Origin: an uncultured bacterium
Lineage (GTDB): Bacteria > Cyanobacteriota > Vampirovibrionia > Gastranaerophilales > Gastranaerophilaceae
Assembly (NCBI GenBank): GCA_949282195.1
Contig: CASDOW010000003.1
Coordinates: 26,325-90,324, forward strand
DNA: 64,000 bases
Reading direction: 5' to 3'
Positions 24,669 through 27,801 of this stretch are shown in pieces (position 1 is the first letter of the stretch; every line of letters starts with the position of its first letter). Made by a program: the position numbers and the translations under genes. The notes beneath the pieces were generated by a model. It saw only the letters and a list, made by a program, of their open reading frames with translations. It was not told the DNA's origin and ran no database searches.

Positions 24669-25239
24669 TTCAACTAAATTTTTAGATTTTAAATCTACAA
24701 TTTCCCCTTCAGGGCAAGATTGGTACTATGTAAAAAGGACAAATGACAAGCCAAATCATGATAGTGCAGTTGCAATAACAACGCTTGTAAAAATAAATGG
24801 CGAATATAATTTTCTTTTTATCAAGACAAATAGACCGCCAATTTTATCGGAAAATAAAGCAAAATACTGCCTTGAATCTCCTGCGGGACTGATTGCTGAT
24901 ATAGATAAGGATGAAACTTTATCAGATTGCATTAAAAAAGAACTTTTAGAAGAAACAGGTCTTGTTGCAGATGAAATATATATCGAACTTAAAAATTCAT
25001 CTACAAGCGCTGGTTTATCAAGCGAAACTTTAACTTATGTTACTGCAATTTGCAATTCATATAATATCATTCAAAAGCCTGTTTCTGACGGCGGAATAAT
25101 ATTAGAAAGATTTTTTATTCCGATAAATTCAATTAACAGATATTTAACAACGATTAATCAAAGCGAAATATCCGTGGCTGCCGCACTTGTTTGCGGAGTT
25201 TATTATGCATTATTGAGGGTTAATTCTCTCCAAAAATAA
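24655..25239 (+). CDS. Nudix hydrolase
   Basis: 194 residues with a Nudix box, PAGLIADIDKDETLSDC followed by IKKELLEETGLV. The normally invariant Arg of REUXEE is replaced by Lys, giving KELLEETG. The shape (SPAGLI before the box, a large beta insertion after it) is closest to ADP-ribose or nucleotide-sugar pyrophosphatases. Overlap with thiE suggests coupled expression; a role in thiamine or nucleotide pool sanitation is only a guess. Confidence 0.8.
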   Translation: MAVINSTKFLDFKSTISPSGQDWYYVKRTNDKPNHDSAVAITTLVKINGEYNFLFIKTNRPPILSENKAKYCLESPAGLIADIDKDETLSDCIKKELLEETGLVADEIYIELKNSSTSAGLSSETLTYVTAICNSYNIIQKPVSDGGIILERFFIPINSINRYLTTINQSEISVAAALVCGVYYALLRVNSLQK

Positions 25240-25444
25240 GCAATTTTTCTATATTTACATTTAAAAATTTTGATAATTCATAAATCTTAGCTAAAGACAT
25301 GTTTGCCTTACCGCGCTCAATATTTGCTATATAATTTTGTGATACATTCATAATTTCGGCAAGTTGTTCTTGCGTTAAGTCTTTCTTAATGCGCTCAATT
25401 TTAACATTTTTGCCGAATTTTTTTAATAAAATTTCTTTATCCAT
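25220..25444 (-). CDS. XRE-family transcriptional regulator
   Basis: 74-residue single-domain Cro/CI-type helix-turn-helix protein: IKKDLTQEQLAEIMNVSQNY as helices 2-3 with recognition segment QNYIANIERGKANMS, and the final helices SLAKIYELSKFLNVNIEKLL. It is divergent from the surface-protein gene at 25534. The 90 bp between them hold two symmetric operators that overlap the facing promoter, so it probably represses both itself and that gene. Its 3' end overlaps the Nudix gene by 20 bp. Confidence 0.85.
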   Translation of the reverse strand: MDKEILLKKFGKNVKIERIKKDLTQEQLAEIMNVSQNYIANIERGKANMSLAKIYELSKFLNVNIEKLLIFGEN

Positions 25445-25446
25445 AT

Positions 25447-25512
25447 TTATAAGTATATAAATATTGACTTATAAATTTAAGAGTGTTATAAGTTATAATA
25501 TATAACTTATAA
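25447..25512. promoter_or_regulatory. Two XRE-type operators
   Basis: The 8-bp half-site TTATAAGT/ACTTATAA occurs exactly four times as two inverted pairs: 25447-25454 with 25467-25474 (12 bp apart) and 25486-25493 with 25505-25512 (11 bp apart). The second pair extends to a perfect 12-bp dyad with a 3-bp centre. A fifth, imperfect half-site lies at 25519-25526. The geometry of the two pairs is almost the same, as expected for cooperative repressor dimers. Confidence 0.75.
25464..25492 (+). promoter_or_regulatory. Promoter of the cysteine-rich surface-protein gene
   Basis: TTGACT (25464-25469), a 17-bp spacer and TATAAG (25487-25492). The -35 box overlaps operator 1 and the -10 box overlaps operator 2, so bound regulator would block RNA polymerase. 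Confidence 0.65.
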
Positions 25513-25533
25513 ATTATAACTTATTGGGGAATT

Positions 25534-27744
25534 ATGAAACACAAAAATTTTTCATGCCAAAAATTTGGCTTTTCTATGGTGGAATTAATGATATCACTTA
25601 TTGCGATTAGTTGTATCACGGCTGCTTTTACGCCGTTGATTACTAAAAAGTTTGCTACAAACATCGGCTTTGGCGGCGGCGGAGGAACTACTCCTTCAAT
25701 TAGTTCTGATTGTAGTTCAAGATATTCATCTGATTGTTTATTATGTACATCAAGCGAATGTTTGAGTTGTTCTAAAACGTGTCCAGAAGGTCAATGTCAA
25801 GATTCAACAAATTGTTCTTGTAAGGATTGTCCTGAAAGTGAATATCCTAATTGTATTAAATTTACAAATACAGCTTGTATACAATGTAAGAATGGTTATA
25901 GGTTAGTTGATAGTACTTGTATAGAGTGTCCTAACGGAAAATATTCGGATAACGGAAAAGAATGTAAGTATTGTGAAATAGGTTATTGGCCTAATGATGA
26001 TAAAACAGCTTGTGTGGAATGTCCTAAGGGGTATATTTGTAATCAAGATACACAGGTAAAATGTAGCGGTACAACAACACCAAAAATTGAAGAAAACCTT
26101 GGAGGTATTTTAGGTAAATCTCATATTTGCGCTCCATGTCCAGCAGGGTCTTATTGCGTAAATGGTATTGAAACAAAATGCCCTGAAGGAACATATTCAG
26201 AAGGTAATAAATCACAATGTTCAACATGTCCAGATAATGAACATCCAAATGAAGATCAAAGTGCTTGCACAAGTTGCCCGACAGGTTATTATTGTTCAGG
26301 CGGTCAACAAGTATCATGTAGCGAAAAATGGAGAAATTGTGCTGAATGTGATTCAACGGGCTGTACTAAATGTAAGGAAAATTTTAATTTTTCAAATGGT
26401 CAATGTGAAAGCTTATCTCCTGTTACAATGAAGGTCGGAAATCTTTATGTAACAAAATATAATATGGGCGATAGAGATGAGCTTCCTATTCCATCAACTA
26501 TTACTTTATTAAATTATAACGAAAAATGTCCTACAAATGGAAGATGCTGCTGGCAGGGGCAAACTGCAAATGGTAGCTATTGTGATGCTGAAAATGGTGG
26601 ATATAGCGGTTGTAAAAGAACGGTTTGCAATTGGGACGCAGCAAGAGAAGTTTGTGCCAGACTTGATTTAGACGGATTTAACTGGAGGTTACCCGCATAT
26701 TCTGAAATGAGCAGTTGGTATTCATATTCTGCTCTTATGTCTGCAAACGGGTTACAGTTGTGTAATGGTTACGATGGAAGTTCTAAAAATTGGTCACGTT
26801 GCTATCCACAATACAGCAACTGCGGAAATTATGTAAATTATTCTTATATAGGATCATTAGCATGTTATCCAAGTTACTTGTGGACAAGAAACTATTATAA
26901 CAGCGATAACGCATACTACTACTATTTAAGTGGTTCAAATGGTTATTGGAGTTATGCATCAACATACAAAAGATATGCTGCTTCTGTTCGTTGTGTGGCT
27001 GAAGAATCAAATACTTGTCCTGCAGGCACATATAAAAGCAATAATGATTGTCTTGATTGTTCTAATAAATACCCAAACTGCAGTCTTTGTGATGATCAAT
27101 TGTGTCATTTATGTCAAACTGGATATGAATTCCATAGAGGAACAGGTAAATGTGTTAAATCACTAGAAAATGCTCTTCCTGTAGATAATTTTTATGTAAC
27201 AAAATATAACATGGGTGATAATGGTCTACCAATACCTTCAACTGTTACAATACTTCCAATTAACGGTACTTGTACATCAATTAGATGTTGTTGGCAGGGT
27301 CAAACTGCAAATGGTAGCTATTGTGACGCATTTTATAATGGGTATAGCGGATGTAATAGAACAGTGTGCAATTTTGAAGCAGCAAAAGAAATATGTAATC
27401 AATACACAGGTGGTAATAAAACTTGGAGACTGCCTAAATACTCCGAAATGAGCAGTTGGTATCAAACGTATTCATCTAATTATGCGGATATATTTGGATT
27501 GCAATTATGCAATGGCTACGATGAAAAAAGTTATAATTGGCCCAGGTGCTATCCCAAATACGGTTCTTGCAAAGGAACCTACTCAGATGCGTGTTACTCC
27601 AGTTATATATGGACACAAAATACATCTAATATTAATAGCTCATACTATTACTATTTGAGCGGATCTAACGGATATTGGAATTATGCAATCACTTACAATC
27701 TTGAAGCTTTTTCTGTTCGCTGTATAACCGATAGAGTTGATTAG
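25534..27744 (+). CDS. Cysteine-rich surface protein with prepilin-like N-terminus
   Basis: 736 residues. The N-terminus is a type IV prepilin signal: cleavage after Gly12 would leave FSMVEL (Glu at mature +5) and a hydrophobic helix to about residue 38. A Gly-rich linker is followed by about 240 residues of cysteine-rich repeats of the type CPAGSYCVNG and CPTGYYCSGG, resembling GCC2/GCC3 or growth-factor-receptor-like modules of eukaryotic surface proteins. Then come two copies of a ~190-residue domain (about 299-490 and 551-736). Each has YVTKYNMGD, CCWQGQTANGSYC, WRLP..SEMSSWY, LQLCNGYD, YYYYLSGSNGYW and SVRC(V/I), reminiscent of Fib_succ_major/DUF1566 domains. Likely a disulfide-rich pseudopilin or surface adhesin. 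Ligand unknown. Preceded by TTGGGGA and controlled by the divergent XRE gene. Confidence 0.8.
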   Translation: MKHKNFSCQKFGFSMVELMISLIAISCITAAFTPLITKKFATNIGFGGGGGTTPSISSDCSSRYSSDCLLCTSSECLSCSKTCPEGQCQDSTNCSCKDCPESEYPNCIKFTNTACIQCKNGYRLVDSTCIECPNGKYSDNGKECKYCEIGYWPNDDKTACVECPKGYICNQDTQVKCSGTTTPKIEENLGGILGKSHICAPCPAGSYCVNGIETKCPEGTYSEGNKSQCSTCPDNEHPNEDQSACTSCPTGYYCSGGQQVSCSEKWRNCAECDSTGCTKCKENFNFSNGQCESLSPVTMKVGNLYVTKYNMGDRDELPIPSTITLLNYNEKCPTNGRCCWQGQTANGSYCDAENGGYSGCKRTVCNWDAAREVCARLDLDGFNWRLPAYSEMSSWYSYSALMSANGLQLCNGYDGSSKNWSRCYPQYSNCGNYVNYSYIGSLACYPSYLWTRNYYNSDNAYYYYLSGSNGYWSYASTYKRYAASVRCVAEESNTCPAGTYKSNNDCLDCSNKYPNCSLCDDQLCHLCQTGYEFHRGTGKCVKSLENALPVDNFYVTKYNMGDNGLPIPSTVTILPINGTCTSIRCCWQGQTANGSYCDAFYNGYSGCNRTVCNFEAAKEICNQYTGGNKTWRLPKYSEMSSWYQTYSSNYADIFGLQLCNGYDEKSYNWPRCYPKYGSCKGTYSDACYSSYIWTQNTSNINSSYYYYLSGSNGYWNYAITYNLEAFSVRCITDRVD

Positions 27745-27775: not shown

Positions 27776-27801
27776 AAGGGGGCAATTGCTCCCTTTTTTT
27801 T
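27776..27801 (+). terminator. Terminator of the surface-protein gene
   Basis: Stem AAGGGGGC with GCTCCCTT (one G-T pair) and AATT loop, followed by eight or more T. Located 32 bp after the stop. Confidence 0.8.

Follow-up and report, generated by a model that had tools for sequence, protein, structure and literature searches.

A conserved operator of four TTATAA-centred boxes separates a small XRE-family regulator gene from the divergent gene for a cysteine-rich, prepilin-type protein in the 64,000-nt stretch of DNA analysed here (the window), from a gut bacterium of the order Gastranaerophilales. Each box likely takes up a single dimer of the regulator, which would thereby repress its own gene as well as the prepilin gene. 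The four repeat copies that define the operator are non-random and conserved. The sequence also supports the view that this multi-site operator spans the two predicted divergent promoters and faces the gene for a predicted surface protein. An initial annotation of the locus had proposed an XRE repressor of a surface-protein gene with a bipartite operator; the regulator, the multi-site operator and the predicted surface gene all hold up, whereas the bipartite architecture is not supported.

Genes in this part of the window run in the order sigma factor (− strand), ThiD2/ThiE, NUDIX, XRE regulator (−), 736-residue protein (+), hairpin and LepA (−) (Table 1). The regulator and prepilin genes are separated by 89 bp of very AT-rich sequence, and the last 20 bp of the regulator gene (window 25220-25239) are shared with the 3′ end of the convergent NUDIX gene. 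In the 736-residue protein, a Pfam scan places the Lcl_C domains at the C terminus. Its N terminus carries a prepilin-type signal recognised by eye, with a Pfam N_methyl match that lies under the cut-off (E 0.033). A genome search finds paralogs of this protein elsewhere in its own genome. Relatives of the regulator come mostly from Candidatus Gastranaerophilales metagenome-assembled genomes, a group that the NCBI taxonomy lists under Candidatus Melainabacteria.

Table 1 Features of the regulator-prepilin locus, in window coordinates.
Feature	Position	Strand	Remarks
XRE/HTH_3 regulator gene, 74 aa	25220..25444	-	Pfam HTH_3 E 1.5e-15
Box 1 ATTTATAAGT	25445..25454	.	Abuts regulator start codon
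Predicted regulator -10 TATACT	25452..25457	-	7 nt before ATG; weak -35
Predicted prepilin promoter (TTGACT, 17 bp, TGtTATAAG)	25464..25492	+	By eye
Box 2 ACTTATAAAT	25467..25476	.	Overlaps predicted prepilin -35
Box 3 TGTTATAAGT	25484..25493	.	Contains predicted prepilin extended -10; without the left A of the other boxes
Box 4 ACTTATAAAT	25505..25514	.	Downstream of predicted prepilin transcription start
Fifth, overlapping box match AATTATAACT	25512..25521	.	Sequence match
Gene for 736-aa prepilin-type, cysteine-rich protein with Lcl_C domains	25534..27744	+	Lcl_C E 1.5e-10, two stretches
Terminator-like hairpin 3′ of prepilin gene	27776..27795	+	Scan

The four exact copies of TTATAAGT/ACTTATAA described in the initial annotation were re-found at 25447-25454 (+), 25467-25474 (−), 25486-25493 (+) and 25505-25512 (−), with inner gaps of 12 and 11 bp. 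The first copy, said to abut the start codon of the regulator, indeed begins 2 bp from the ATG, and the TTATAA cores that the copies share are spaced 22, 17 and 21 bp centre to centre. Taken singly, the 8-mer TTATAAGT is present in the window at chance frequency (7 observed against a mean of 6.0 in shuffles). Four or more copies of any 8-mer within the 89-bp intergenic region were reached in 0 of 200 Markov resamples, and an inverted repeat in this region has a resampling rate of 4 in 100. The paired pattern TTATAAGTN{9,14}ACTTATAA is found at two places in the 2.1 Mb genome, both at the window locus; its reversed-pattern control matches once per strand, and the pattern as such is therefore not especially rare. 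A double box matches six times, five at the window locus and once on contig 43, against 8 and 10 matches for the reversed controls, and on its own is thus weak evidence. The near-full operator, at up to three mismatches, is confined within its own genome to the window locus, and no wider regulon of the window regulator was found.

To follow the boxes across genomes, we used the orthologous regulator as an anchor. Of 288 genomes sampled across the family, 112 match the regulator at E 1e-14 or better, paralogs counted, and these belong to 27 of 41 genera. The operator set comprised the window together with the 80 best of 93 relatives as named loci, less L163 and L206, which have under 75 bp upstream; collapsing identical regions left 74 distinct sequences. 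We looked for TTATAA at offsets 0, 22, 39 and 60, allowing the last to shift by 1 bp. Exact matches number 62, 62, 39 and 45 of 74 for boxes 1 to 4, rising to 73, 69, 60 and 63 when one mismatch is allowed. In 55 of 74 regions all four sites lie in register with no more than one mismatch each, compared with 1 of 3700 dinucleotide shuffles scored identically (0.0003), and all four are exact in 23 regions but in none of the shuffles; the other 19 regions miss at least one site at the one-mismatch threshold. Absence of the sites from orthologous intergenic regions had been named at the outset as the observation that would count against an operator, and these regions contain them. Where the divergent gene was not recognised, boxes 3 and 4 are kept in 4 of 8 regions, compared with 51 of 63 elsewhere, a trend only (p 0.07). 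Fourteen loci carry gpmI on the side divergent from the regulator (L181, L182, L191, L196, L203, L204, L205, L209, L211, L213, L214, L216, L217 and L218); at L181 and L191 the gene begins at a distance of about 250 bp, no prepilin gene intervenes and the boxes are degraded.

The boxes are interleaved with the predicted promoter elements. The prepilin promoter has its −35 hexamer at 25464-25469 and its −10 hexamer, TATAAG without the usual last T, at 25487-25492, and its TTGA and TATA columns are conserved among the 74 regions. Transcription is predicted to start near 25499, and a GGGG lies at 25526-25529. The repeat copies were originally placed over the −35 and −10 elements, and in this predicted promoter copy two shares 3 bp with the −35 and the −10 falls inside copy three. 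On the other strand, the first T, the A and the last T of the regulator −10 are invariant in 74 of 74 regions. Because this element lies so close to the ATG, the regulator mRNA is predicted to be leaderless. A generic consensus scan listed neither promoter. Its output does include a leftward promoter-like site within the prepilin gene, at 25560-25531, a possible rival regulator start that would give the mRNA a leader. We propose that a regulator dimer would occupy each TTATAA-centred box, so that boxes 2 and 3 would repress the prepilin promoter, box 1, at the predicted leaderless start, would serve autorepression, and the boxes may act cooperatively.

The relatives of the regulator raise the question of whether it could also activate. 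In profile searches its nearest solved relatives are the controller (C) proteins C.BclI (E 2.4e-10) and C.AhdI (E 6.1e-10), with CylR2 third. An AlphaFold model of moderate confidence (mean pLDDT 72) gives C.AhdI as the top fold match (E 0.0024), level with a Neisseria regulator, and the fold search returned no match at E 0.001 or better. Among NCBIfam models none exceeded its cut-off for the regulator; the highest-ranked was that of the Y4mF antitoxin subfamily. This kinship, together with a regulator promoter predicted to have a conserved −10 and only a weak −35, would suit a dual switch of the C-protein kind, in which a low level of regulator activates its own or the prepilin promoter and a higher level represses. 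Activators usually bind at characteristic positions relative to the promoter start, and box centres that precede the predicted regulator start by about 28 and 45 bp do not match them. Boxes 2 and 3, moreover, lie over elements of the prepilin promoter, as would suit repression, and we consider a dual switch unlikely.

What the orthologous regions conserve, at sites 1, 2 and 4, is a self-symmetric box of 10 bp, AnTTATAAnT. An A on the left and a T on the right, two positions outside TTATAA, occur together in 67 of 73 regions at box 1, 67 of 69 at box 2 and 45 of 63 at box 4. Box 3 has the pair in 3 of 60 and instead carries TG on its left, like an extended −10. Base composition predicts both letters in about one region in six. 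The base adjoining TTATAA varies. These features bear on the initial proposal of two bipartite palindromic operators, TTATAAGT-N12-ACTTATAA and TTATAAGT-N11-ACTTATAA, units of about 28 bp that would repress cooperatively and perhaps act as a bistable switch. In the window the two inverted pairs are indeed exact, and the second sits inside a 27-bp near-perfect palindrome. They do not persist as a conserved unit, since the 74 regions contain the first exact pair in 33 cases, the second in 10 and both in 6. From clade to clade the G or C adjoining TTATAA switches sides, while the symmetric A...T flank is retained. Each C-protein dimer is centred on a pseudo-dyad within TATA, according to PMC4041747, so the nearest relatives place one dimer on each such site. 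Four dimer sites are for that reason likelier than two bipartite operators, which we regard as quite improbable, and the sequence gave no evidence of positive feedback or mutual repression of the sort that bistability would involve. One dimer per box is likely the best reading. PMC4321490 gives the usual C-protein consensus as GACTTATAGTC, which box 2 with its neighbours, GACTTATAAAT, resembles; it describes a pair of dimer sites that are typically separated by about 4 bp and, for C.Csp231I, a spacer of 18 bp. A reading in which the boxes represent AT-rich promoter DNA retained for use by RNA polymerase, with the regulator acting elsewhere, would fit the base composition of the region, the chance frequency of the single 8-mer and the fact that box 3 is itself a −10, but is very improbable given that boxes 1, 2 and 4 hold register and symmetric flanks across genera though the driven gene changes, and that the near-full operator recurs nowhere else in the genome.

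We then asked what the conserved operator drives in other genomes. A divergent reading frame begins 55-149 bp from the regulator ATG at 69 of 81 loci, and at 79-92 bp in 53 of these; no such frame was found at the remaining 12, three of which are near contig ends. By similarity, the 69 genes include 31 of prepilin type, 7 glycosyltransferases, 3 acyltransferases, 7 members of an MDLSK-like family of 65-74 aa and 7 of an MNIKQ-like family of 63-71 aa, and the remaining 14 loci fall into 12 small groups. Ten representatives were scanned with Pfam. Glycosyltransferase, acyltransferase and Lcl_C models exceeded their cut-offs, N_methyl did so for L148 and L168 and fell just under for L145, L146 and L203, and three small proteins matched no model over cut-off. 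The boxed promoter faces proteins of 63-74 residues in two sets of loci, one family at L151, L155, L156, L158, L164, L166 and L173 and a second at L172, L179, L184, L186, L194, L195 and L210. On the regulator tree, most of whose forks are poorly resolved, the five main classes need 5 changes where the minimum is 4, and rampant swapping of the driven gene is thus not seen at class level. The NUDIX/ThiE/sigma neighbours of the window recur at L141-L144, L146, L150 and L171. The prepilin in this slot varies in length and sequence between loci, except at L141, where it is clearly orthologous to the window copy along its whole length.

Pairing of a prepilin gene with a divergent regulator extends beyond this operator. 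The genome of the window holds 14 prepilin copies with a shared N terminus, 13 of which have a divergent regulator 89-402 bp upstream; the other has none within 900 bp. Two of the 13 regulators are S24-peptidase proteins of the CI/LexA kind and the rest match the XRE model. Two prepilin copies that face CI/LexA-like S24-peptidase proteins (L125:5500-6093 and L126:637-1254) would be candidates for release upon DNA damage. In this genome the window box AnTTATAAnT occurs in 0 of the 12 other intergenic regions between a regulator and a prepilin gene. Because this box is missing there and the regulators differ, every prepilin gene would be kept silent by a divergently encoded repressor of its own, and a private operator in those 12 modules is argued on these grounds and not from identified sites. 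Repeated 8-mers in the 12 did not stand out as in the window (lowest control rate 37 of 200), and modules C16, C14b and C32 contain inverted repeats that arise in fewer than 5 of 100 resamples.

The regulator-beside-prepilin layout is common in the genus. A search returned 136 prepilin matches in 20 of 21 genomes, and among the 80 examined with their flanks, 56 have a divergent ORF matching an XRE model within 700 bp. The other 24 comprise 4 with less than 240 bp upstream, 3 that face S24-like proteins (one tested, two assigned by similarity), 1 that faces a MerR-like protein (by eye) and 16 with no recognised regulator. As background we took the 301 ORFs of at least 200 aa in the window and L056-L115. 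A divergent XRE-type ORF accompanies 43 of them, of which 41 adjoin the orthologous regulator; with these excluded the count is 2 of 260, both prepilins. Putative pilus machinery is represented in the own genome by one Peptidase_A24 match and five T2SSE (PilB-type ATPase) matches, all over cut-off, and partial pilus gene sets are described for Gastranaerophilales in PMC5877343.

Comparison of paralogs and orthologs points to an N-terminal prepilin segment that is homogenised within each genome, at two loci and in two genomes. The window copy agrees with its contig 11 paralog at 46 of 50 residues over codons 10-60 and 99 of 127 over codons 111-290; the corresponding figures against its syntenic ortholog at L141 are 41 of 51 and 172 of 180. 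L141 belongs to genome G293 (identical contig sequence) and mirrors the window copy, matching its own paralog G293_C51 at 47 of 51 residues over codons 10-60. The second ortholog pair, the contig 11 copy and G293_C51, agrees at 42 of 51 residues over codons 10-60 versus 175 of 180 over codons 111-290. Diversification of the Lcl_C domains by a retroelement was rejected, as the reverse transcriptase model PF00078 has 0 matches at E<=0.001 in the assembly.

Taken together, these observations suggest, tentatively and at somewhat less than even probability, a genome-wide repertoire of prepilin-anchored adhesins in Gastranaerophilales, at least 14 of them in this genome, almost each under its own non-interchangeable divergent repressor, whose N-terminal segments recombination homogenises while the outer domains diverge and which cells may unlock independently. 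Part of the same tentative reading is that the controller-protein-like lock in the window kept its operator across genera while the driven gene was replaced several times. If so, surface variation here would use many independent locks, not one expression site, phase-variable repeats or retroelements, and controller-protein-like regulators would extend from restriction-modification systems to surface genes. The conserved box offers a handle by which regulator, boxes and driven gene can be matched between genomes, and the 74-residue regulator is small enough for a direct in vitro test. Our literature search, which subscription papers mostly lay outside, found no report of this regulator-prepilin arrangement and no account of surface variation in these gut bacteria, whose relatives here are nearly all metagenome-assembled genomes.

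Several known systems resemble parts of the locus. The C proteins, such as C.BclI, C.AhdI, C.Esp1396I and C.Csp231I, share the small XRE fold and as a group include the closest solved relatives by profile and by fold, and their loci likewise place several TATA-centred boxes between or before the controlled genes. The window differs in having four or five boxes 17-22 bp apart rather than two sites with a typical separation of about 4 bp, in a regulator divergent from the gene that it faces, and in that Pfam found no restriction or modification gene among the scanned neighbours (sigma factor, ThiD2/ThiE, NUDIX, Lcl_C protein and LepA). CylR2, also a small XRE protein, represses a divergent operon and so shares the layout; unlike there, the driven gene is prepilin-type in the window and a glycosyltransferase, acyltransferase or small protein in other genomes. 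Neisseria-type pilin antigenic variation proceeds by recombination between one expression site and silent cassettes. The likeness lies in the many paralogs and in an N-terminal segment closer within a genome than between syntenic orthologs, whereas each copy described here comes with an upstream region of its own and, in most cases, with a divergent regulator. The Lcl_C domain (DUF1566) is common to the 736-residue protein and to adhesins such as the Legionella collagen-like protein Lcl, which binds host glycosaminoglycans according to PMC11162425; in the window protein the domain stands behind a prepilin-type N terminus and a cysteine-rich region.

The prepilin repertoire may be larger than counted. 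Fourteen contigs (2, 3, 8, 9, 14, 16, 18, 21, 23, 27, 32, 34, 39 and 56) terminate inside a prepilin match or no more than about 190 bp from one, since assembly likely breaks at near-identical copies. On contig 23 (L121), a prepilin copy beside its XRE gene is interrupted by stop codons shortly after the N terminus and looks broken.
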